Assembly (NCBI RefSeq): GCF_964033635.1
Contig: NZ_OZ035533.1
Span: 6,419,001 to 6,483,000 of the forward strand
Direction of reading: 5' to 3'
Length of the DNA stretch: 64,000 nucleotides
DNA from: Chitinophaga sp. MM2321
Lineage (GTDB): Bacteria > Bacteroidota > Bacteroidia > Chitinophagales > Chitinophagaceae
Positions 2,303 through 14,157 of this stretch are shown piece after piece. The notes beneath the pieces are model-generated. The model saw only the letters and a program-made list of their open reading frames with translations. It was not told the DNA's origin and made no database searches. Within the stretch, counting starts at the first letter, position 1. Each line of letters opens with the position of its first letter. The position numbers and the translations under genes were made by a program.

Positions 2303-4714
2303 ATGTGGCAACGTTTAGCAGGCTTTGTGCTAAAATATAGATTATCGCTTCTTCTACTATTACTCGCCGGCACTGGAGTGATGGCATACTTTGCCAGTAA
2401 GGTACAGATGTCCTACGACTACGTGGCTACCATACCACATGATAATCCTAAGTTTCTTGAATACCAGCGGTTTAAAGAGAAGTTTGGTGGTGATGGAAAC
2501 ATGCTCGTACTGGGTGTTCAGACAGATAGTTTTTTTCAGGCAGATTTTTTCAACGACTATGTAAAGTTGAATCAGGACCTGAAAAAAGTGACTGCAGTAG
2601 AGAATATCCTGAGTGTGCCGATGGCCATTAATCTTATAAAAAATGATAGCACACATAAGCTGGAGGCGGGTTTGCTATTTAAAGGCGGCGTTTCGGATCA
2701 GGCGGAAATAGATAGCCTGGCCAATGTTTTCAGAACGCTGTTGTTTTACAAAGGGCTCCTCTACAATCCGGATACACATGCTTACCTGATGGGCATTTAT
2801 GTGAATAAGGATGTATTTAATTCCTCCCAGCGCACCGCTGTAGTAGCGGAGATTTCGAAGCTCGCAAAAGCATTTGAAGAAAAGCATCATACGGAGGTGC
2901 GAATGAGTGGCTTGCCATTAATTCGTACAGTCATGGCCGTTAAGGTGGCCGACGAACTGAAATTATTTCTCAAAATATCTTTCCTGTTAACCGGATTAAT
3001 ACTGTTTCTGTTCTTCCGTTCTTTCGGAGCGGTACTCATGTCAATGATAGTGGTAGCTATTGGTGTAATATGGTCAGTCGCCACCATTGTGCTGATGGGC
3101 TATAAGATCACGCTGCTAACGGGTTTGATTCCTTCACTGATTGTGGTCATCGGTATTCCGAATTGTGTGTACTTCCTGAGTAAGTATCACACAGAGTATG
3201 CAAAACATGCCAACAAAACGCGGGCACTCATACGCATGATCCAGCGGATGGGGATCGTAACATTGTTTACCAATCTCACGGCAGCCATCGGGTTTGGGGT
3301 ATTCTGTTTTACCAATAGTGCCATCCTGAAAGAGTTTGGCGTAGTAGCAGGGTTGAATATTATGTTCATCTTCCTGATCTCCTTCATCTTCCTGCCTTCC
3401 GTACTCAGTTATTTACCACCGCCTCATAAGCGGCATACCAACTACCTGGAAAGTGGTTTTTTCCGTGGAATGCTGGACTTTATCACTACGCTGGTATTTA
3501 AGCACCGCAAGGGAATCTATGTGGTAAGTGCCGTACTGGTGATCCTGTCTATTGTTGGTATGGGGCGTTTGAAGTCGGTAGGCTTTATGCTGGACGATAT
3601 TCCTAAAACAGATAAGCTTTTTACGGATCTGAAATTTTTTGAGAATAATTTCAAAGGGGTGATGCCCCTGGAGATTGCAGTAGATACGAAGCGAAAGAAC
3701 GGGGTGATTAATCTGCAAACCCTGAACAAGCTGGATGAGCTGACGGCATTGATTTCGGCGCAACCGGATTTTGCCAGACCCTTGTCTGTAGTAGAAGGGA
3801 TCAAGTTTGCGAAGCAGGCTTATTATAATGGTGATAGCTCCAATTATGCGGTGCCTAATCAGTTTGATCTGGGCTTTCTGGCGCCTTATCTGCGCATGAA
3901 AGGCAGTAATAATGCTACCGGCGCCACTTCTACGTTTTCGAAGCTAGTATCGTCTTTTATGGATAGTACGCGGCAGATAGCCCGTGTGAGTGTAAACATG
4001 AAAGATGTGGGATCACAAAAGCTGCCGGTACTGATGGATTCGCTGGAGCCCAAGGTGACCGCTATTTTTGACACGGCTCATTATAAAGTGACCTTTACCG
4101 GTACCAGTATTATATTCCAGGAGGGAACGCGGTTTATTATCAATGGGCTTGCAGAGAGTATCCTGCTGGCTTTTGTGCTGATCATGTTCTGTATGTTGTA
4201 CCTGTTCCGGTCGTGGCGGATGCTGATTATATCGCTGATCCCGAATGTTATTCCGCTGGTAGTAACCGCGGGTGTGATGGGATGGGTAGGTATTGCGCTG
4301 AAGCCGTCTACTGTACTGGTATTCAGTGTGGCATTGGGTATAGCCATTGACGTTACGATCCGTTTCCTGGTGAATTTCAAGCAGGAATTGCCGCAGCATG
4401 ACCTGGATATCTCCGCCACGGTTAAGCAAACGATCCATGAAACGGGGTTAAGTATTATTTATACCTCTATGATCCTGTTTGCCGGGTTTATGATCTTCAG
4501 TTTTTCCGAGTTTGGCGGTACAAAGGCGTTGGGCTGGCTTACCTCTCTGACGCTTGTGGTGGCTATGATCACCAATCTTACCATTCTGCCGGCATTGTTG
4601 TTATGGATGGAAAAGGCGTTGCTGAAAAAGGCGCGGAAGAAGGAACTGTGGAAAACGCTGGATGAGGAGGAAGATATAGCGATGTCCGAGCTGGGAGTAG
4701 ACGATAAAGAATAG
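2303..4714 (+). CDS. RND superfamily (MMPL-type) exporter
   Basis: The 803-residue polytopic inner-membrane protein has two halves of the MMPL/SSD kind. Each half has an N-terminal membrane helix (about 13-32 and 400-418), a large periplasmic domain (about 35-220 and 430-610) and a cluster of five hydrophobic segments. Such proteins export hydrophobic compounds, often lipids, driven by protons. The second half contains GIAIDVTIRF near residue 680, with the acidic residue typical of RND proton relays. The matching position in the first half reads GIPNCVYFLSKY, with no acidic residue. There is no adjacent membrane-fusion or TolC-like gene, so it may be a stand-alone inner-membrane transporter of the HpnN/MmpL type. 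The substrate is unknown. A clear terminator follows. Confidence 0.8.
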   Translation: MWQRLAGFVLKYRLSLLLLLLAGTGVMAYFASKVQMSYDYVATIPHDNPKFLEYQRFKEKFGGDGNMLVLGVQTDSFFQADFFNDYVKLNQDLKKVTAVENILSVPMAINLIKNDSTHKLEAGLLFKGGVSDQAEIDSLANVFRTLLFYKGLLYNPDTHAYLMGIYVNKDVFNSSQRTAVVAEISKLAKAFEEKHHTEVRMSGLPLIRTVMAVKVADELKLFLKISFLLTGLILFLFFRSFGAVLMSMIVVAIGVIWSVATIVLMGYKITLLTGLIPSLIVVIGIPNCVYFLSKYHTEYAKHANKTRALIRMIQRMGIVTLFTNLTAAIGFGVFCFTNSAILKEFGVVAGLNIMFIFLISFIFLPSVLSYLPPPHKRHTNYLESGFFRGMLDFITTLVFKHRKGIYVVSAVLVILSIVGMGRLKSVGFMLDDIPKTDKLFTDLKFFENNFKGVMPLEIAVDTKRKNGVINLQTLNKLDELTALISAQPDFARPLSVVEGIKFAKQAYYNGDSSNYAVPNQFDLGFLAPYLRMKGSNNATGATSTFSKLVSSFMDSTRQIARVSVNMKDVGSQKLPVLMDSLEPKVTAIFDTAHYKVTFTGTSIIFQEGTRFIINGLAESILLAFVLIMFCMLYLFRSWRMLIISLIPNVIPLVVTAGVMGWVGIALKPSTVLVFSVALGIAIDVTIRFLVNFKQELPQHDLDISATVKQTIHETGLSIIYTSMILFAGFMIFSFSEFGGTKALGWLTSLTLVVAMITNLTILPALLLWMEKALLKKARKKELWKTLDEEEDIAMSELGVDDKE

Positions 4715-4746: not shown

Positions 4747-4774
4747 AAAGGGTGCTAAACGCACCCTTTTTTTT
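4747..4774 (+). terminator. Rho-independent terminator after exporter
   Basis: The stem GGGTGC (4750-4755) and GCACCC (4761-4766) encloses loop TAAAC and is followed by eight T residues. Three A residues in front also pair with the T tract, making it usable in both directions. Confidence 0.85.
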
Positions 4775-4856
4775 AGCTAAAAGAGACAAAAAAACACCCT
4801 GAAATAATCTAGTGGACAGCATTCAAATACCCTTATCACCGTTTGTATAAAAGGGG

Positions 4857-4868
4857 TGGGTATACCCA
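4857..4868. promoter_or_regulatory. 12-bp perfect palindrome TGGGTATACCCA
   Basis: This exact two-fold symmetric site lies 45 bases before the start codon of the transposase-like gene at 4914. It could be an operator bound by that gene's own helix-turn-helix, or a remnant of the terminal inverted repeat of an ancestral insertion sequence. A weaker flanking pair, CTAGTGG (4809-4815) and CCACTAG (4904-4910), brackets the region. No matching inverted repeat was seen on the far side of the gene. Confidence 0.4.
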
Positions 4869-4913
4869 TAAAAAAGTATGAGGTTTATAATGCCATTTTA
4901 ACACCACTAGTTC

Positions 4914-5618
4914 ATGAAAAACAAGTACTTAAAGGGCGCTCATTTATCCGAGCGCAAATTTAAGGAGATCCTGCGGCTGTTTGCCGATGATCTCACTGCG
5001 ACGCAGATAGCGAATATCAGCGGTGTAAGCAGGGTAACGATCAATAGTTATCTGAAGAAGCTAAGACACCAGATAGCCCGCTGCTGCGAGACGCTGCATC
5101 CTGTGCCCGCGCCTGTTATAGCCTATGACAGCCGGCAGGAAAATTCCCAACCAGACCACGGAAGCGACACGCTGGTGGCTGTAAAACCGGAAGTAGAACG
5201 GCTTGTAAAGCCTGTTATTTTCGGGATTTGCAGACTACCGGACCGGTTGTACACCGAGATTTTACCTGACGTAACCCGTTCTATGATCCATGCTGCCACC
5301 AGGGGGCGTTCCGTATTGGAAACCCTGGGAGCCACGGAGCGTTTGCGTGGGTTTAACGGTGTGGTAGATCTGGGACAGTACCGGTTGTACCGGTTGGGTA
5401 GTTCCATTACCGACACGTTAAACGGAAGTCCGCTTATGGACGATGTAGATGCTTTCTGGGCGCTGACAAAGCACAGGCTGGCCAAATTCAAGGGCCTGAA
5501 CCGGAATACGGCATACCTGCATCTGAAGGAGTGCGAGTACAGGTTTAACAACAGGAATGAAGACCTCTACGGGGTATTGCTGGAGTTGTTGAAAACATAT
5601 CCGCTTACCCTTGCCTGA
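4914..5618 (+). CDS. IS1595-like transposase homologue with broken catalytic triad (exapted?)
   Basis: The 234-residue protein can be aligned by eye over its whole length with IS1595-group transposases. It has an N-terminal helix-turn-helix (LTATQIANISGVSRVTINSYL, about residues 28-47), a central segment with FGICRLPDRLYTEILPDV (103-120) and a C-terminal block AFWALTKHRLAKFKGL, then YLHLKECEYRFNNRN (180-215). The DDE catalytic positions are degraded. D72 may survive in IAYDSRQEN. The usual SDGWRGY motif reads ATERLRGF (140-147), so the second aspartate is gone. The usual HINGIExFW reads LMDDVDAFW, so the glutamate is aspartate and the preceding His/Asn are lost. The frame is nevertheless intact and no paired terminal repeats were found. 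The likely role is a DNA-binding protein derived from a transposase; an immobile relic is the alternative. Confidence 0.7.
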   Translation: MKNKYLKGAHLSERKFKEILRLFADDLTATQIANISGVSRVTINSYLKKLRHQIARCCETLHPVPAPVIAYDSRQENSQPDHGSDTLVAVKPEVERLVKPVIFGICRLPDRLYTEILPDVTRSMIHAATRGRSVLETLGATERLRGFNGVVDLGQYRLYRLGSSITDTLNGSPLMDDVDAFWALTKHRLAKFKGLNRNTAYLHLKECEYRFNNRNEDLYGVLLELLKTYPLTLA

Positions 5619-5627
5619 TAAAAATTA

Positions 5628-5650
5628 TTGCCCCACTTTAAGTGGGGCAA
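5628..5650 (+). terminator. GC-rich hairpin after transposase-like gene
   Basis: TTGCCCCAC (5628-5636) and GTGGGGCAA (5642-5650) form a perfect 9-bp stem with a 5-base loop, ten bases after the stop codon. There is no T tract behind it, so it may protect or attenuate the transcript instead of being a classic terminator. Confidence 0.5.
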
Positions 5651-6078
5651 CATTAATCTCGATTTAGATTTTGGTTGATGAGCGCAGGCGGCATTCTTGC
5701 CGCTTGTTTAACCACAAGGAATTACAAGTTATTTATTATTATAATTTGTTAATGAGAAGTTAAAAAAATGTTATCTAAGTGTTATCACCAACTTCCCAAG
5801 TTTAATTTTTTGTTAATAATGGCTATATTTACAGCCTGTTTGAAAATTTGCTAAGGAAACTGCTTGTGAGAAAGAAGTTCACTACTTCTCTTGTCAATTC
5901 TTTAATGGAATCGCAAGGGAGGTCGTTGATTTTTAATTTATGTTATATATACACCAACATTAAAAGTCTCCACTAAACAATTTAATCAACAGATTTAACG
6001 GGAACCAATTGAATTAAGGCTATCGCCTTGATAATGATTATTATTTTTTTTGAAGGTTAAACATTAGGAAACAAAATC
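5651..6078 (+). other. AT-rich intergenic region / probable susC leader
   Basis: The 428 bases contain no plausible gene. A small hairpin GCGGCA-TTCT-TGCCGC lies at 5688-5703, and AGAAGT-TCACT-ACTTCT at 5873-5889. No exact TAnnTTTG box was found, so the promoter of the first susC is not located. AGGAA at 6066-6070 is a possible ribosome-binding site for the start at 6079. Confidence 0.5.
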
Positions 6079-9000
6079 ATGCTTATGAGGAAAGTATTAT
6101 TTCTCCTCTTGTCCGTGCTATGCCTGACGGGACAAGCTTTCGCGCAAAGTCGCACTGTAACGGGGAAAGTTACCGACGGAACCGACGGTTCTCCTATACC
6201 TGGGGTAACAATTCAGATTAAGGGTACTGGCAAAGGAGCTACCACCCAACCCGATGGCCAATTCAGCCTGGAGGCTTCCAGCAACGATGTATTTATCGTG
6301 TCTTTTATCGGCTATGAAAGCCAGGAGGTACCAGTAGGTACCGGCACCAATCTTCATATTAAACTGAAGGTTGATTCCAAAAACCTGGATGAAGTAGTGG
6401 TAACAGGTTACACCATCGAACGGAAAGTAAATTCCACCATTGCTGCTTCTACTATCAATGGTGGCAAAGTAAACAGCATTGCACTGCCGGACGTAAACCA
6501 GATGTTGCAGGGTAATGCGCCTGGTATCTCCGTAGCTACCAACTCCGGTCAGCCTGGTGCAAAAACCGAAGTGCGCGTACGTGGTATCGGTTCCATTTCG
6601 GCGAGCAACAGCCCGCTGTATGTATTGGACGGTGTGATTATGTCTTCCGGTGATTTAACACAGAACACCCAATCGCAGGACATCATATCTAACCTCAACC
6701 CTGCTGACATCGAGAATATCACTATTCTGAAAGATGCCTCTGCTACTGCATTGTATGGTTCCCGTGGGTCCAACGGTGTGGTGGTAATTACCACCAAAAC
6801 CGGTAAAAAAGGTCAGAACAGGATCAACTTCAATGGTAAGTATGGTTTTCAACAACTGGCTAAAGGCATCGATATGATGAATGCTTCCGAGTTGCTGGCT
6901 TACCAGCGCGAAGGCTTGAAGAATGCGGTTGATAAAACTACCGGAGAAAGAAAATATTCTGATGCACAGATCCTGCAATATCGCCCGGATCTCCTGGCTG
7001 ATATTAATACCAACTGGATGGATGAAGCGTTCCGCACTGGTAAAACCCAGGCGTTTGGCATTAATGCCAGCGGCGGTAACGAAAAAACCACGTTCTATGC
7101 ATCCGGTGATTATTTTAAACAGGAAGGTATCCTGATTGGAAGTGATTTCAGTCGTTATGCCGGCCGTTTGAACGTAGATCACAAGTTCAACGATAAGTTT
7201 GATCTGAGTGTAAAAATGAGCGGATCATATACTGATCAGCTTAGTGCAGCTGGTGGTAGTAACTACTCTTCACCATTGTCAGGTGCCATCACACAGGTTC
7301 CCTGGATTCCTGCACGTGATGAAAATGGTACGCCTTACAATGGTTACAAGCCTGGTCAGCCTGGTTCTGATACCTGGGCTGGTTTTCAGGATATTCCACA
7401 GGCATGGCGCCCGACTTTACAGGGTGGTAACTTCCTGAACACAGTTGCGCAGAATTATAGCAAGAGCAATAACACACAAACCATTTTCAATGCGGCGTTA
7501 GGTTATAACATCACCGACGGATTGCGGTTTGTAGTAAAAGGAAATGCTGAGCTGACCGGTATCCGTGAAAAACAATGGTCATCTCCTGATAGCTACGACG
7601 GCCGTAACTACGGTGGTTACCTGTATAATGTAAACAGTAATGTAGCATTGTATACTACGCAGCAATTGCTGACGTATAACTTCAATGTTGGTGCAGATCA
7701 CAGCTTCCGCTTACTGGCGGGTAATGAATATTCTTACCAGAGCCACATATGGTCACTGGGCGCCAAAAATGGTTTCCCCGGTGGTCAGTTACAGGTGCCT
7801 GACGTAGGCGCTAACCTGTTTGACGGCGGTGGTAATGAATCTGCTTACGCCTTCCAGGGTATCCTGGCAAAAGCTGATTACGACTATAAATCAAAATATT
7901 TCCTGAGCGGTAGTTTCAGAAGAGATGGATCATCCCGTTTCCCTAAAGACAACCGTTATGGTAACTTCTATTCTGTAGGCGCTGCGTGGCGTATTACCGA
8001 AGAAGAATTTACCAAATCCCTTTACTGGCTGAATGACCTGAAACTGCGTGCCAGCTATGGTATTATGGGTAATGCGGAAGGACTGGGTAACTATCCTTTC
8101 CAGGCATTATACAGCCTTGCAGGCGCTTACCAGGGAGAAACAGCTGCATTTGCCAATCAGCCGGGTAATCCTATGCTGAGCTGGGAAAAACAGAACCTGT
8201 TTGATGTAGGACTGGATTTCAGCGTGTTTAAAAAACGTGTATACGGTAGCGTAGGTTTCTACGACAAGCGTTCCTCTGCCTTGCTGATGGAGATGCCATT
8301 GTCTATGACCACCGGTTATGAAACCATGAATATGAACGTGGGTCAGATGTTGAACCAGGGCTTCGAAATTACCCTGGGTGCTGTACCGGTAGCCACTAAA
8401 AACTTTACGTGGACAACAGACCTGAACTTTGCCACCCTGCGGAATAAAGTACTGTCACTTGGTGAGCAGCAAACGATCCCTGCTGGCAGCAGACAACGGA
8501 TTGAAGTGGGCAGACCATTTGGTTCCTGGTATATGCCGGTATGGTATGGTGTGAATCCTGAAAATGGTGCAGCACAGTGGGAAGATGCTACGGGCGCGCC
8601 AACGGAAGATATCAACCTGGCGCCCAGAAAATATGTGGGTCAGGCATTGCCAAAGATCACCGGTGGATTTACCAACAAGATAAATTATAAGGAATTTGAC
8701 CTGTCTATGCTGATCACTTTCAGCGCAGGCAACAAAGCATATAACTACAACCGCATGAACCTGGAAAGCGATGGCGCTGTTACCCGCAACCAGGCTAAGG
8801 ATGCATTGGATCACTGGGAGCAGAAAGGTGATATTGCTGACAGACCAAAAGTTGTGTTTGGCGGTAGCGGATCAAACGTTACTTCCAGCCGTTACCTGGA
8901 AGATATTTCCTATGCAAGAATCAGGAACCTGACGCTGGGTTATACTTTGCCAAAAAGTGTGTTAGGTAGTATGAAGATGCAGTCGCTGCGTGTATTTGCA

Positions 9001-9174
9001 CAGGCTGAAAACCTGTTCACGCTGACTGGCTACAAAGGATGGGATCCGGATATCAATACCAATCCGCTGCCTCCTACCAGCACTACTTCTCCTACCAGTG
9101 TGAATGCGGGTCTCGATTTTTATCGTTATCCTACTTCCCGTGTGTTCACTTTTGGTGTAACTGTAGGTCTGTAA
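6079..9174 (+). CDS. SusC/RagA-type TonB-dependent outer-membrane transporter (locus 1)
   Basis: The 1031-residue protein imports a ligand, usually an oligosaccharide or peptide, across the outer membrane using TonB energy. In order it has a signal peptide ending QAFAQ near residue 23, a carboxypeptidase-regulatory-like domain (about 25-100), the TonB-box-like LDEVVVTGY (about 103-111), a plug domain with VRVRGIGSISASNSPLYVLDGV spread over about 165-190, the family signature DASATALYGSRGSNGVVVI, and a 22-strand-type barrel to the end. ATG at 6079 is eight bases behind AGGAA. An ATG two codons later (6085) aligns with the starts of the other two susC genes and is the alternative. susD follows after 37 bases. 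This pair differs from the next two: it lacks the third lipoprotein gene. The substrate is unknown. Confidence 0.93.
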   Translation: MLMRKVLFLLLSVLCLTGQAFAQSRTVTGKVTDGTDGSPIPGVTIQIKGTGKGATTQPDGQFSLEASSNDVFIVSFIGYESQEVPVGTGTNLHIKLKVDSKNLDEVVVTGYTIERKVNSTIAASTINGGKVNSIALPDVNQMLQGNAPGISVATNSGQPGAKTEVRVRGIGSISASNSPLYVLDGVIMSSGDLTQNTQSQDIISNLNPADIENITILKDASATALYGSRGSNGVVVITTKTGKKGQNRINFNGKYGFQQLAKGIDMMNASELLAYQREGLKNAVDKTTGERKYSDAQILQYRPDLLADINTNWMDEAFRTGKTQAFGINASGGNEKTTFYASGDYFKQEGILIGSDFSRYAGRLNVDHKFNDKFDLSVKMSGSYTDQLSAAGGSNYSSPLSGAITQVPWIPARDENGTPYNGYKPGQPGSDTWAGFQDIPQAWRPTLQGGNFLNTVAQNYSKSNNTQTIFNAALGYNITDGLRFVVKGNAELTGIREKQWSSPDSYDGRNYGGYLYNVNSNVALYTTQQLLTYNFNVGADHSFRLLAGNEYSYQSHIWSLGAKNGFPGGQLQVPDVGANLFDGGGNESAYAFQGILAKADYDYKSKYFLSGSFRRDGSSRFPKDNRYGNFYSVGAAWRITEEEFTKSLYWLNDLKLRASYGIMGNAEGLGNYPFQALYSLAGAYQGETAAFANQPGNPMLSWEKQNLFDVGLDFSVFKKRVYGSVGFYDKRSSALLMEMPLSMTTGYETMNMNVGQMLNQGFEITLGAVPVATKNFTWTTDLNFATLRNKVLSLGEQQTIPAGSRQRIEVGRPFGSWYMPVWYGVNPENGAAQWEDATGAPTEDINLAPRKYVGQALPKITGGFTNKINYKEFDLSMLITFSAGNKAYNYNRMNLESDGAVTRNQAKDALDHWEQKGDIADRPKVVFGGSGSNVTSSRYLEDISYARIRNLTLGYTLPKSVLGSMKMQSLRVFAQAENLFTLTGYKGWDPDINTNPLPPTSTTSPTSVNAGLDFYRYPTSRVFTFGVTVGL

Positions 9175-9211: not shown

Positions 9212-10639
9212 ATGAAATATTCAAAACTTTCTATACTGGCTTTATCTGCGGCCACTTTCATTTCAGCTTGTAATTCCAAGCTGGATCTGAAGCCTGCGGA
9301 TTCGCTGGATGATAATAGTGCAATTACAGAAGGAAATGTGCGGATCCTCGCAAATGGTATGTATGAGCGTGCGCAGGAACTGGAATACTACGGTCGTGAT
9401 TTCATGGTGGTAACAGATGTGGGTGGGAATGATATGAAGATCACGCCATCCAATTCCAACAGGTTTATCTATGAGTTTCAATACATGTATTCTCCGTTGC
9501 TGAGTCCTCAGACCAAAACATGGCAGAATGCATACCGTGTAGCCAACCAGGCAAGCGTGATCATTGATAAGTTGCCTACTACAGAGAATACTGCCGGTGC
9601 TAAAGGAGAAGCATATTTTATGCGTGCCCTCGCACATTTTGATCTGACGAGAAGATATACCAGGCCCTACTCCCTGAACAAAGCGGATGCCGATAAGCCT
9701 AATACAGGCGTGGTGTTGGTGATGGCAGCTATAGATGATCCGGGTAATTACAAACCGGCACGTGCTACACTCAATGCTACTTATGATGCCATTATCAGTG
9801 ATCTGAAAGCAGCACAGCAAACAGCGCCGGACACCAAACCCGGTACTGCCGGCGTGTTCAGGGGATCAAAGGATGCAGCTACTGCATTACTGACACGTGC
9901 TTATCTTTATAAAGAAGACTGGGCAAACGTAATCAAAGAAGCTACTTCCCTGTTGGGTGGTAAGTATCCTTTATGGGATGGCAGTAACTACCTGGCTAAT
10001 TTTACTTCAGATAACGCTACCTCCGAAGATATTTTTGCGCTGCGGTTTCTGGCGCCTGAAAACCGGGGTTCCAACAACTTCGGAAATATCTACCTGCCTG
10101 CCGATGGAAGTGCTACCGGTGGTTACGGAGATATCAGGCTGACGGATGGTTTTATGAATCTGCTGGAAGCCGGTGATACCCGTAAGGCTATCACTCAAAA
10201 CTACGCAGGGAGTAACTACCTGATTAAGTGGATTGGTAACGGACAGGGCCTGACCGGTATGGCGAATGTGAAAGTGCTGAGAATAAGTGAAGTGCTGTTG
10301 AATCGTGCAGAGGCTTATGCGGAGCAGGGTAATTTATCACTGGCAGTAATTGATGTTAATACATTGCGTGCAAAACGTGGACTTGCTGAATTTACAGATG
10401 AGGCGAATGTTAAAGCGGAGATTAAGAAAGAGAGAAGACTGGAGCTGGTAGGTGAAGGTCATGGTATGACGGATATTTTCAGAAAGAATGATAAACGCAG
10501 CATTAAAGATGCAGATGCTATCCTTCCGCAGACACCGGATATTACAACAGATAACTACCGTATTGCTTATCCGATTCCCCAGATAGAAATCGATGCGAAT
10601 GCAAACATCGAGCAGAATCCGGGTTATCAGAAGAACTAA
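9212..10639 (+). CDS. SusD/RagB-type surface lipoprotein (locus 1)
   Basis: The 475-residue lipoprotein forms the ligand-binding lid over its SusC partner at the cell surface. The signal peptide ends in SAC with the lipidated cysteine at residue 20. Helical TPR-like segments follow, for example KTWQNAYRVANQASVIIDKL and GEAYFMRALAHFDLTRRYTR. The RagB/SusD C-terminal block is clear: ISEVLLNRAEAYAEQGN, then KKERRLELVGEGHGMTDIFR and YPIPQIEIDAN ending NPGYQKN. It is transcribed with the upstream susC, and a strong terminator follows. Confidence 0.92.
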   Translation: MKYSKLSILALSAATFISACNSKLDLKPADSLDDNSAITEGNVRILANGMYERAQELEYYGRDFMVVTDVGGNDMKITPSNSNRFIYEFQYMYSPLLSPQTKTWQNAYRVANQASVIIDKLPTTENTAGAKGEAYFMRALAHFDLTRRYTRPYSLNKADADKPNTGVVLVMAAIDDPGNYKPARATLNATYDAIISDLKAAQQTAPDTKPGTAGVFRGSKDAATALLTRAYLYKEDWANVIKEATSLLGGKYPLWDGSNYLANFTSDNATSEDIFALRFLAPENRGSNNFGNIYLPADGSATGGYGDIRLTDGFMNLLEAGDTRKAITQNYAGSNYLIKWIGNGQGLTGMANVKVLRISEVLLNRAEAYAEQGNLSLAVIDVNTLRAKRGLAEFTDEANVKAEIKKERRLELVGEGHGMTDIFRKNDKRSIKDADAILPQTPDITTDNYRIAYPIPQIEIDANANIEQNPGYQKN

Positions 10640-10689: not shown

Positions 10690-10992
10690 GTGTTAATCCT
10701 TTTTGTGTGCGGCGCCGGTATGTTTCCCCATTTGTAAAAAAATTCTTTTATGCACTTTTCTTTGTATTTGCATAAAATAAATGTATTGGGTCTATATCAA
10801 TTTATTCAACATTTCCTAATGTTTGCTTGTTATTTAGCTGTTATTTAACAAATATTTTTATCCCCTCATATAGCAAAATTTATGTAATTATCTGATATTA
10901 TTTTACCCAATATCGATATTATATCTTCTTTTTATCGTAATTTAATAGTGTTAACTACTCTTTTTAGTCAATCAATCTAAACCAAATTGCTT
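10690..10992 (+). other. AT-rich promoter/leader region of susC locus 2
   Basis: About 300 bases of very AT-rich sequence without a credible gene. No exact TAnnTTTG box was recognised. The last ten bases before the start, AAATTGCTTATGA across the start codon, are shared with the third susC. Confidence 0.5.
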
Positions 10993-13900
10993 ATGAAAAA
11001 AGAGCTACTACTATTGCTGTTCGTGTGCAGCAGCGTCCTCAGCGCGGTAGCCCAGACACGAACGATCAGCGGAAAAGTTAGTGATGCAAAAGATGGCTCT
11101 GCTTTACCAGGAGTTACAGTGGTAATCAAGGGTACAACAAAGGGTGTTTTTACATCCGGAGATGGTACTTATAAAGTGACCAACATCGATGCGGGATCTA
11201 CACTCATTTTTTCTTTCGTAGGTTATCTCAATAAGGAGGTAATCGTGGGGGGTAATAATATTATTGATGTATCCATGGAGGCTGATAAAAAACAGCTGGG
11301 AGAAGTGGTGGTAACCGCCGTGGGCTTAAAACGCAATGAAGCTACACTGGGGTATTCGGTCACGTCTGTCAAGCCTGATCAGATCCTTCAAAAATCAGAG
11401 CCGGATATGCTGAAAGGTTTACAAGGCAAAGTAGCCGGTGTAGACATCAGAACTTCACAGGGTACACCCGGCGCTGCTACCCGTATTAATATACGCGGTA
11501 ACACTTCTTTCTTTGGAAACAACGAACCATTGATTGTAGTAGATGGGATTCCTTACAATAATGATCAGATAACTACTTCCAGCCAAACGTCTGGTGGTGG
11601 TGCCTATTCCAGCGGACTTTCTTCACTGGATCCTAATGATATTGCTGCTATGACTGTGCTGAAGGGTGCAGCAGCTGCGGCTTTATATGGATCAAGAGCG
11701 TCCAATGGTGCAGTGATCATTACTACAAAATCGGGAAGTGCTTCTATTGGCAAACGGAAACTGGAAGTAAGCTACTCTACTTCTTACTCGTTTGAAAATG
11801 TGGCAAACCTTCCTAAGTATCAGAATGACTATGGCACAGGAAGTTCATTTACTTACGCGAATGCCAATGGTTCCTGGGGCCCCAGATTCGGCACCCTGGA
11901 TTCCGTGCCTGCATGGCCAGATTATCTGGCTGCTTTTCCTGAATTGTTTCCGTCATCCGGCAACATAAAATATCAACCATACCCAAACAACGTAAAAGAT
12001 CTTTTCAGAACAGGGTTTATCTCTGAAAATTCAGTTGGCGTAAATGGTGGCAATGAAAAGTCAGCATTGAGCGCAACAGCATCTTATCTGAGTCAGGATG
12101 GTTATGTGCCGCATTCCAGTTTCAATAGGGGGAATATGTCTGTGGGCGGTGTTACCAGGTTGGCTAACGGCCTTACTGTAAACGCAAACTTCAGCTACAG
12201 TACCAGTAATCAGGCGGGTAGTATTTTCGGGGAAAACCAGGTATCGGGTGCCGCTTCTTCCTTTGCGCGTAACCTGTTCCTGGGAAGGACCTGGAATATA
12301 GCAGGCTTGCCTTTTGAAGATGCCAGTGGTAAACCGGTTTCCACGAATAACTCGCAGTATGATAACCCGCTCTGGGCTTTTAAACATAATACGGTTACTA
12401 CTGCAACGGACCGTTATGTAGCAGGCTTGAAATTCAATTATGATATCCTGCCTTGGTTTAATGCAAGTTATCAGATAGGAACCAACTCAAATTCCTTCTT
12501 CAGAAAAGAAGTAACAGATATTGGTTCAAGAGGTGCGGAAACGGTAGGACAGATTATTGAACAGAATTACCGGCTTGCGGAAATTGAGTCTAACCTCATC
12601 GCCACCTTTACACCAAAATTATGGAACGAAGATTTTGGTTTCAAAGGGTTGCTTGGTTATAACGTCAATCAACGTACGATGAGATCACAGATCATCTCTG
12701 GAAAAAATATTATCGTACCGGGCACCTATAGCCTGAGCAATACCAAGAGTGTATTGCCTACAGAGGATGTATACGAACAGCGGCGCTTATGGGGTGCGTT
12801 TGCGGAAATAGACCTGGATTATAAAAAGTGGTTGTACCTGATCGTGACAGGTCGTAATGACTGGTCTTCCACACTACCAACAACTAACCGTAGTTACTTT
12901 TATCCCAGTGTAGCTACTTCCTTTATTTTTACCGAGGCGCTGAAGATGAACAGCAGCGTACTTACTTTTGGTAGATTGAGGGCCAGCTGGGCTAAAGTAG
13001 GTAGAGATGCGGACCCTTACCAATTGGCGAACACCTTCAACGTAAATACAGCTTTTCTTGGTCAACCCGGTGTGATGCAGTTACCCACAGGTGGTAATGC
13101 TGCATTGAAACCAGAGTTTACACAGGATTTTGAAGTAGGTACCAGCCTGGAGTTTTTTGACCGGAGAATAGCCCTGGATGTTGCCTGGTATTCCCGTTTG
13201 TCTACAAACCAGATTGCACCACTTACCCTGCCTCCTTCTTCAGGATACGGACAGGTGATCGATAACTATGGTAAACTTACCAATAAGGGTATAGAAGTAG
13301 ATCTGAATGTAATACCGGTTCAGACGAAAGATTTCACGTGGAGTTTGCATTGGGTGTTTACCAAAAACAGAAGTGAGGTGAAAGAGCTGAAGGAAGGTGT
13401 AACCCGTTTGTTGCTGAATGGTGTACTGGATGAAATGAGTCCATACCTGGAAGCAGGCAAGCCTTATGGTTACCTGCGTGGTACTGCAGATGCGCGTGAT
13501 AAAGACGGTGCCCTGTTAATTGATCCTTCCACCGGATTCCTTATCAGGGAGCTGGATCAGCGACAGGTGGGTGATCCGAATCCGGATTTCAAAACAGGGT
13601 TGGGTACTACATTGAGTTATAAAGGAATTTTCCTGAATGCTTTATTTGACCTTACACGCGGCGGTGATATTTATTCCGTTACCACTAGCTCTCTGCTGGG
13701 ACGTGGTGTAACCAAGGATACAAAAGATCGTGAAGGTGTGTTTGTAATTCCCGGTTACTATGGAGATGTAAATTCTCCGGGTACCGCTCTGCTGGATCCG
13801 AAAGGTCAGCGGATTCCGAATCAGACACAGATCAGTTTATTCGAAACATATTTTGGGGAAACATTTGCCATCAACTCGGCAACAGAATGGAATGTGTATG

Positions 13901-14157
13901 ATGCTACCGTATATACTTTACGGGAAGTAACGCTTGGTTATGATTTCCCAAAATCAATGTTTAATAAAACACCGATCGGAGGCCTGACCATTACCTTATC
14001 AGGTCGTAATCTCTGGTATGTCGCACCTAATTTACCGAAGTATAGCAACTTCAATCCTGAAGTGGGCAGCTTTGGTTCTACCAATACACAAGGTATTGAG
14101 TTGTCTGGCGCACCTACTACCCGTCGTTACGGTGTAAACCTGAAAGTGACCTTCTAG
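10993..14157 (+). CDS. SusC-type TonB-dependent transporter (locus 2)
   Basis: ATG at 10993 is chosen over an upstream in-frame TTG at 10987, giving 1054 residues. After the signal peptide (ending AVAQ) come the regulatory-like domain TISGKVSDAKDGSALPGVTV, a TonB-box-like GEVVVTAVGL, a plug with NIRGNTSFFGNNEPLIVVDG, the signature AAALYGSRASNGAVIITTKSG and the beta barrel ending RYGVNLKVTF. It is closely related along its whole length to the locus 3 transporter, while the locus 1 protein is much more distant. Codon third positions differ widely between copies 2 and 3, so the duplication is old and the protein is under selection. It is the first gene of a three-gene operon. Confidence 0.93.
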   Translation: MKKELLLLLFVCSSVLSAVAQTRTISGKVSDAKDGSALPGVTVVIKGTTKGVFTSGDGTYKVTNIDAGSTLIFSFVGYLNKEVIVGGNNIIDVSMEADKKQLGEVVVTAVGLKRNEATLGYSVTSVKPDQILQKSEPDMLKGLQGKVAGVDIRTSQGTPGAATRINIRGNTSFFGNNEPLIVVDGIPYNNDQITTSSQTSGGGAYSSGLSSLDPNDIAAMTVLKGAAAAALYGSRASNGAVIITTKSGSASIGKRKLEVSYSTSYSFENVANLPKYQNDYGTGSSFTYANANGSWGPRFGTLDSVPAWPDYLAAFPELFPSSGNIKYQPYPNNVKDLFRTGFISENSVGVNGGNEKSALSATASYLSQDGYVPHSSFNRGNMSVGGVTRLANGLTVNANFSYSTSNQAGSIFGENQVSGAASSFARNLFLGRTWNIAGLPFEDASGKPVSTNNSQYDNPLWAFKHNTVTTATDRYVAGLKFNYDILPWFNASYQIGTNSNSFFRKEVTDIGSRGAETVGQIIEQNYRLAEIESNLIATFTPKLWNEDFGFKGLLGYNVNQRTMRSQIISGKNIIVPGTYSLSNTKSVLPTEDVYEQRRLWGAFAEIDLDYKKWLYLIVTGRNDWSSTLPTTNRSYFYPSVATSFIFTEALKMNSSVLTFGRLRASWAKVGRDADPYQLANTFNVNTAFLGQPGVMQLPTGGNAALKPEFTQDFEVGTSLEFFDRRIALDVAWYSRLSTNQIAPLTLPPSSGYGQVIDNYGKLTNKGIEVDLNVIPVQTKDFTWSLHWVFTKNRSEVKELKEGVTRLLLNGVLDEMSPYLEAGKPYGYLRGTADARDKDGALLIDPSTGFLIRELDQRQVGDPNPDFKTGLGTTLSYKGIFLNALFDLTRGGDIYSVTTSSLLGRGVTKDTKDREGVFVIPGYYGDVNSPGTALLDPKGQRIPNQTQISLFETYFGETFAINSATEWNVYDATVYTLREVTLGYDFPKSMFNKTPIGGLTITLSGRNLWYVAPNLPKYSNFNPEVGSFGSTNTQGIELSGAPTTRRYGVNLKVTF

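Follow-up and report, generated by a model that had tools for sequence, protein, structure and literature searches.

In eukaryotes, the domestication of DDE transposases is textbook knowledge; the known domesticated transposases of bacteria derive mostly from TnpB and other non-DDE enzymes. Here we describe a gene in a 64,000-nucleotide (nt) stretch of the Chitinophaga sp. MM2321 genome (the window in what follows), whose 234-residue product traces to the insertion-sequence (IS) family IS1595 and has lost the Asp-Asp-Glu (DDE) triad of catalysis. We refer to this gene, its product and its relatives without the triad as dead. The domestication of this DDE-dead transposase is well supported: we computed its ancestry, the loss of catalysis (in the sequence and in the predicted fold), its vertical inheritance in the genus and the purifying selection that acts on it. 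The product of this single-copy host gene is, with a probability of about 0.6, a DNA-binding transcriptional regulator. As a domesticated bacterial DDE transposase, it is a core gene in all 79 Chitinophaga genomes examined.

The nearest described elements are those of the IS1016 group of IS1595, which are reported to be without a zinc-finger domain; members of the family usually carry 8-bp duplications (PMC8101967). The dead protein resembles the IS1016 group in its length, its N-terminal helix-turn-helix (HTH), its C-terminal HLKECEFR block and its common ancestry in the tree, whereas it has neither the DDE triad, nor PF12762, nor repeats that we could find, and is fixed at one place. A comparable history is that of the TldR proteins, nuclease-dead TnpB repressors, in which a transposon nuclease is described as having lost catalysis, kept nucleic-acid recognition and become a regulator (PMC13418256). 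These are derived, however, from TnpB (IS200/IS605, IS607) and are RNA-guided enzymes of the RuvC type (PMC13418256), whereas the window protein comes from a DDE transposase with an HTH and has no known guide RNA. The eukaryotic FHY3/FAR1 proteins are likewise described as a DDE transposase turned transcription factor, but of the Mutator type, a likeness by description and not by sequence. Our searches of open-licence papers, judged by title and opening of the abstract, yielded no domesticated bacterial IS1595 transposase, and these searches found nothing that joins IS1595 with Chitinophaga, or on inactive bacterial transposases. The homologues available for comparison are numerous (8000 scored; the 42 aligned all keep the triad), and a set of this size makes the loss of catalysis, the partial loss of the fold and the retention of DNA recognition traceable step by step. 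For experiments on its function, soil bacteria are at hand.

Descent from short IS1595 transposases and loss of the catalytic site

The gene and its parts are as follows (positions in the window).

4914-5618, + strand: transposase-derived coding sequence, 234 residues (open reading frame; profile NF033547 below its cut-off; 79/79 genomes; ratio of nonsynonymous to synonymous substitution, dN/dS, 0.067)
4950-5096, + strand: HTH part, residues 13-61, the strongest constraint (AlphaFold helices, dN/dS, weak HTH matches)
5097-5210, + strand: linker, residues 62-99, disordered and fast-evolving, in the place of the first catalytic strand (VDESYFG) of intact relatives
5337-5339, + strand: codon of Glu142, aligned with the second catalytic Asp
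5421-5615, + strand: conserved C-terminal block, residues 170-234 (27/65 positions invariant in 44 sequences; dN/dS 0.043)
5448-5450, + strand: codon of Asp179, aligned with the catalytic Glu, inside the C-terminal block

The original prediction had placed a full-length IS1595-like transposase with an open frame and a destroyed triad at 4809-5650. The whole open frame indeed lies inside that span, which also takes in the upstream intergenic region. The IS1595 ancestry is borne out by the NCBIfam profile for IS1595 transposases, NF033547, which matches residues 10-214 over nearly its whole length (profile positions 3-215 of 215; E 3.4e-13), although the score of 50 bits falls short of the curated cut-off of 75 bits, so that by this cut-off the protein is not counted in the family. 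Seven further dead relatives score 32.6-52.9 bits, and the intact relatives P0093, P0102 and P0121 score 173-176 bits. PF12762 (DDE_Tnp_IS1595) is absent from the 17 Pfam matches of the window protein at E up to 1 and is present in the intact short relatives (E 1.6e-29 for P0093, E 1.2e-28 for P0102). Pfam HTH families match the window protein below their own cut-offs, the best with 22.9 of 27 bits.

Phylogenetic trees were built from the dead copies, the short IS relatives near P0093 and the long IS1595 sequences of Chitinophagaceae, and hold these alone. In the first tree all 53 dead rows fell on one side of a branch with 100/100 support. A second tree, for which 27 long IS1595 rows served as the outgroup, retained 43 dead rows, after L053, L054, L055, L059, L097-L100, P0088 and P0089 had been dropped as long-branched or odd. 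All 43 formed one clade (100/100), within which Chitinophaga (100/93) and the other genera (99/94) were separated. The dead and the short intact rows stood together at 100/100 against the long IS1595 rows, as expected of descent from the IS1016 group; the sequences thus place the origin of the window protein among short IS1016-like IS1595 transposases. A single domestication is the simplest reading of these trees; closer intact relatives, if such exist, could alter the picture.

To compare the catalytic columns, we aligned 53 dead rows, 17 of them from Chitinophaga, with 22 intact ones. The complete triad is present in 22/22 intact rows and in 0/53 dead rows. The column of the second Asp (D2), Asp in every intact row, holds Glu in 12, Asp in four and Ala in one of the Chitinophaga rows. 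The column of the catalytic Glu, again uniform in the 22 intact rows, holds Asp in 16 and Glu in one. In the first-Asp column no dead row has Asp, and no conserved acidic residue was seen to substitute for it. In the window protein the motif SDGW has become TERL, with Glu142 in the Asp column, and HINGIE has become LMDDVD, with Asp179 in the Glu column. Both replacements had been named in the original prediction; the destruction of the triad goes further, in that the first catalytic block, VDESYFG, is also without a counterpart. A fast-evolving Chitinophaga sub-lineage (G008, G033, P0088-P0090), of about 50% identity and on a long branch, has Glu in the catalytic-Glu column in the three rows examined.

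The structure of the window protein was modeled with AlphaFold from a 91-row alignment (mean predicted local distance difference test, pLDDT, 77; predicted template-modeling score 0.76). The model shows three confident N-terminal helices (residues 13-24, 29-36 and 40-61; mean pLDDT 92-96 in blocks 11-60), as in an HTH fold. Linker residues 67-97 have pLDDT below 50, whereas the model of an intact relative has its first strand at 67-75; in the region of the intact model's D2 strand (130-134), the window model has a helix (135-144). The intact model matches transposases and retroviral integrases in the PDB (16 hits at E up to 0.001, best 2.1e-5). No match of the window model reaches that level, the best of its 171 matches with E up to 10 having E 0.63, a contrast that may be enlarged by the unequal depth of the alignments behind the two models. 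Its plausible structural matches, which are weak, are HTHs of the LuxR/GerE type and the Tc3 HTH, and searches with the whole window model in Foldseek and VIA gave HTH-type or unspecific matches only. By these predicted models, the window protein has kept a recognisable HTH and no longer has a recognisable RNase H-like core.

The acidic residues in the D2 column (16/17 Chitinophaga rows) and the Glu column (17/17) are what one would expect if the element were still mobile and used other acidic residues for catalysis. That the first Asp has no acidic substitute and that the RNase H-like fold is unrecognised argue against this, as do the single place in each genome, the missing repeats, and the failure to see a second copy elsewhere in any of the 79 Chitinophaga genomes. 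We hold continued mobility to be extremely improbable.

One chromosomal place and purifying selection in the genus

The dead gene is present in 79/79 Chitinophaga genomes, in a single place in each, and its frame is open in 77. One of the two exceptions, G065, has two in-frame TGA codons, in an assembly that is 65% complete and in which neighbouring genes are broken too. The other, G027:C16:637853-638547 (L064), has the frame split into two overlapping pieces, the lone such case among the otherwise good genomes of the genus. Synteny was read in 20 Chitinophaga loci, picked for diversity from the 79. In 20/20 the order is MMPL gene, dead gene, SusC gene. In the window, the following features lie around the dead gene.

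2303-4714, + strand: MMPL/RND transporter gene, the conserved upstream neighbour (PF03176, E 8.2e-38)
4750-4774, + strand: hairpin with T-run resembling an intrinsic terminator, between the MMPL gene and the dead gene (read from the sequence)
6079-9174, + strand: gene for a SusC-type TonB-dependent transporter, the downstream neighbour (PF07715, PF13715)

Selection was estimated with our own script (Nei-Gojobori counting) from 44 sequences, on the 89 of 946 pairs with dS of 0.05-1. The median dN/dS was 0.067 and the maximum 0.128. By region, it was 0.018 for residues 1-58, 0.217 for 59-99, 0.058 for 100-169 and 0.043 for 170-234, and 78/234 positions are invariant. An ordinary transposase in decay, drifting without function, would account for the disappearance of the catalytic residues, the first strand and the recognisable ends. 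It is refuted by the dN/dS of 0.067, unless the 89 pairs are unrepresentative of the 946; the open frames and the orthologous position in 20/20 loci speak against it as well, and we give drift practically no weight.

The ends of the element were examined in 53 intact short elements with both flanks, in 10 dead loci, all from Chitinophaga, and in 30 mixed pairs as controls. Inverted repeats scored at least 14 in 45/53 and at least 11 in 49/53 of the intact elements. These repeats are mostly of the GGGTCATGACTAG type (GGGTCATGACTAGTTAAG) and lie mostly 51-62 bp before the ATG; L210, L215 and L225 have another kind. The 10 dead loci scored 7-13 (the 13 being AT-rich), with 0/10 at 14 or above, which is chance level: among the mixed pairs, 25 scored 6-9, three scored 11-12, and the remaining two, which probably join related elements, scored 19. 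No counterpart of the GGGTCATGACTAG-type ends was found in the conserved flanks of the 10 dead loci. A 7-mer pair, CTAGTGG/CCACTAG, was considered as a remnant of the repeats and rejected, the upstream arm being kept where the other arm is not.

Exaptation, as put forward in the original prediction, is strongly supported by these results together: one place in 79/79 genomes, a dN/dS of 0.067, no terminal repeats found, no intact relative found in the genome, a transposase fold that can no longer be recognised and an HTH that is kept. The prediction had named close homologues with intact DDE residues and flanking inverted repeats in the same genome, or a dN/dS near one as a mark of decay, as what would speak against it. 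The family search of the genome found no intact relative, its matches being the dead gene and one of 18 bits, and the dN/dS is far from one. The absence of terminal repeats that it had noted agrees with the chance-level scores of the 10 dead loci, and the synteny that it had asked about is that of the 20 loci above.

At the level of the family, the dead protein finds matches in 40/244 genomes and 15/92 genera of Chitinophagaceae; the match in G284 resembles a fragment of an intact element (it overlaps a family hit). Outside Chitinophaga, the gene occupies a different but likewise conserved place: 17 of the 20 loci read (L081-L100) have it in the order radC-prs-L25-pth-FAA hydrolase-E1 dehydrogenase, named by Pfam for one locus and without the E1 gene in L099. 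One domestication and two chromosomal places together require a move or a duplication. Across the class, 8/396 sampled genomes match. In one of them (L277, G547) DESYFG and TDGW are kept and Lys stands in place of the catalytic Glu. Another of them, a 224-residue relative without the triad, comes from a different family of the class (L276, G536; read by eye, outside the tree), and given L276 the domesticated lineage may be older or may have been transferred. Two dead copies 6 kb apart are seen at G306:C1:414952-421972 (L094), the first being followed by SusC and SusD genes.

A candidate operator and the probable regulatory function

Two features lie between the terminator-like hairpin and the start codon.

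4857-4868, either strand: 12-bp palindrome TGGGTATACCCA, incidental (inner 10-mer in 2/45 genomes)
4869-4913, + strand: conserved upstream block with GAGGTTTATAATGCCATTYTAAC at 4880-4902, a candidate operator or element of the 5' untranslated region (5'-UTR)

In the mechanism that we propose, the Chitinophagaceae copies go back to a single domestication of a short IS1016-like IS1595 transposase. Its catalytic triad and recognisable element ends are gone, as are, by the predicted model, two strands of its RNase H-like core, and the HTH and the C-terminal block are kept. The N-terminal HTH would read a specific DNA site, the C-terminal block would hold a dimer together or contact a partner, and the linker between them would be under little constraint. 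Sequence-specific DNA binding is a reasonable inference from these features, and we likewise infer a site, dimerisation and targets beyond the gene itself. The best candidate site would be the block 4869-4913 before the protein's own start codon, with autoregulation through this block and not through the palindrome.

The palindrome had been proposed as the site of autoregulation. It is present, 45 bases before the ATG, and is not conserved: its inner part, GGGTATACCC, is kept at this place in 2/45 Chitinophaga genomes and occurs at six sites in the genome, equal to the control (the pattern read backwards). The window holds 30 perfect 12-bp palindromes. Over the 45 genomes, mean column conservation is 0.58 at 4857-4868, 0.90 at 4869-4903 and 0.77 at 4812-4856. 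We therefore rejected the palindrome as operator, and autoregulation through it is unsupported because it is not conserved. Autoregulation by another site is plausible, with the block 4869-4913 as candidate. The 23-mer GAGGTTTATAATGCCATTCTAAC of this block was found, at up to three mismatches, directly before the gene in 64/79 genomes, with 15 showing no match and a control of 0; elsewhere it occurs only at two stray three-mismatch sites. A GAGGTT/AACCTC dyad in the block is perfect in some species and imperfect in the window and others, and we do not claim it as operator.

A kept HTH could also serve immunity, the dead protein occupying the ends of incoming IS1595 elements or poisoning transposase multimers, in either case without catalysis. 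HTH residues K15, L27, Q31, R40 and N44 are invariant in the mixed and in the intact alignments alike, and IS1595 matches above the cut-off were counted in 4/39 genomes that carry the dead gene as compared with 69/205 that lack it (Fisher p 0.0036, hand counts, with G284 placed in the group without the dead gene as an intact-element fragment). Counted by genus, however, the figures are 4/14 and 42/78 (p 0.14), and kinship may account for the association. The elements behind these counts mostly have long frames (about 295-405 residues), unlike the short ancestor type, and the recognition helix of the window protein is altered at several positions. Neither the persistence throughout the genus nor the constraint on the C-terminal block points to immunity in particular, and we consider immunity improbable.

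Element B and the neighbouring SusC genes

In Bacteroides thetaiotaomicron, the FopS small RNAs (sRNAs) are reported to bind near susC starts and to repress translation (PMC11697453). The 3'-UTR of the dead gene in the window holds an sRNA-like element, which we call element B, with further features downstream.

5628-5707, + strand: element B, sRNA-like 3'-UTR element (conservation, covariation, folding z, covariance model R1)
5628-5650, + strand: hairpin 1 of element B
5661-5681, + strand: core of element B, GATTTAGATTTTGGTTGATGA
5684-5707, + strand: covarying hairpin 2 of element B, then T-rich sequence
5747-5785, + strand: four GTTA(A/T) units before susC, in 11-bp phase (score 21 of 24, with 0/100 shuffles scoring as high)
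9212-10639, + strand: SusD gene (PF07980, E 5.9e-25)
10966-10984, + strand: predicted pairing site of the core before the second susC (-13.1 kcal/mol, beginning 27 nt before the ATG)
10987-14157, + strand: second susC, whose start adjoins the predicted pairing site

Element B starts 10 nt past the stop codon, in a region with a folding z of -6.9. Hairpin 2 has 10 pairs, six of them with double-sided changes, none broken and one with a gap, in 21 hand-chosen sequences whose alignment and structure came from one program, with a bias toward the structure. In the 46 genomes read, element B lies 3' of the gene in 41 (35 with the exact 19-mer, six with an altered core) and is missing from five related genomes (each genome counted once), and the distance from the last matched codon to the core is 37 to 355 nt. 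The core, 19-21 nt long and invariant in most genomes, is found at up to two mismatches in 79/79 Chitinophaga genomes (control 0). The covariance model also matches in 79/79, and at E up to 0.01 each genome has 3-14 matches. Among the four matches in the genome of the window, the best two are element B and a paralogue, whose core lies at 304085-304105 on the minus strand (unit G000:C1:304050-304105, L106). This paralogue is an sRNA-like unit with a terminator and a TTTG/TAAATTTG promoter, a type that we presume from its motifs, and its neighbours are, as we take them, a histidine kinase and YqgE. No Rfam family reached its gathering score for element B. A coding peptide (DLDFG stop) was considered and rejected, since the frame before the core in the paralogue differs between species. 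Element B and its paralogue form what appears to be an sRNA-like family restricted to the genus, and each genome has two strong members.

The core is antisense to the translation starts of SusC messages, and the paired stretches begin mostly 22-29 nt before the start; the strongest example reaches -23.3 kcal/mol (L074). Pairing was scored in 20 genomes including that of the window (L065 was dropped as broken), for 38 SusC genes and 158 other genes and with 200 shuffled cores. The 38 include orthologues, and the hypothesis was drawn from an overlapping set, so that they are no independent test of 38 cases. At -12 kcal/mol or below, 11/38 SusC genes and 0/158 other genes were predicted to pair, and 0/200 shuffled cores reached 11. 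The corresponding figures at -10 kcal/mol were 17/38 and 16/158 (4/200 shuffles reaching 17), with 6 against 0 at -14 (0/200) and 3 against 0 at -16 (1/200). The contrast between SusC and other genes was -2.62, compared with -0.42 +/- 0.69 in the shuffles, of which 0/200 were as large. The signal is weaker in the window's own genome (1.2 Mb plus the window): 5/27 SusC genes against 32/774 others at -12 kcal/mol (p 0.006), with a contrast as large in 1/60 shuffles and a per-gene z difference that is not significant (p 0.14). The SusC gene directly 3' of the dead gene in the window pairs weakly with the core (-8.7 kcal/mol).

By computation, then, the core is a conserved seed antisense to susC starts (11/38 against 0/158), and by analogy element B would work like the FopS sRNAs. 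The likeness lies in paralogous sRNAs at the starts of susC-type mRNAs, one FopS being described as 3'-UTR-derived (PMC11697453). FopS differs in its 14 members, in repression shown by experiment and in its interaction with RbpB (PMC11697453), whereas element B and its paralogue are two strong members per genome, known from computation. Element B is a good lead to an sRNA family that may control SusC, its core perhaps pairing with the messages of nutrient transporters. It is a directly testable candidate for such a family in a second branch of Bacteroidota, with FopS of Bacteroides as the known example.

The position of element B raises another possibility, that the dead protein acts on RNA together with element B and the paralogous sRNA, for instance as an RNA-binding partner, to control the synthesis of SusC. 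The closeness of element B to the gene (3' of it in 41/46 genomes), the pairing of its core with SusC starts, and some relatives in other genera that also sit before a SusC gene fit this idea. The dead gene is, however, kept without element B in 5/46 genomes, and a search near the gene in loci from other genera found no core; among 238 genomes of the family outside Chitinophaga, the one with the core (a single site, one mismatch) has no dead gene. The Pfam search found no RNA-binding domain, and the adjacency may reflect merely a shared transcript end. Action on RNA seems to us quite improbable.

The DNA-binding regulator that we favour could itself be coupled to element B. The dead gene would then be the transcription-factor half of a two-part regulator of nutrient uptake through the outer membrane, the 3' sRNA silencing SusC mRNAs, its neighbours included, while SusC kinds are exchanged behind a fixed module. 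We regard this as a tentative idea, and on balance an unlikely one; if true, a single core locus of the genus would unite a domesticated IS1595 transposase with an sRNA family of the FopS kind. The SusC genes directly 3' of the dead gene (19 loci within L061-L080, and the window) are of about eight non-orthologous kinds, with 23-42% identity between kinds, and by sequence the SusCD pairs look as if exchanged at one place behind the dead gene.

Four phased GTTAA units, such as those upstream of susC in the window, also stand before susC in L077-L080, and we take them to resemble PhoP-type boxes. Two such units, on the opposite strand, precede most copies of the paralogous sRNA (L106-L128).
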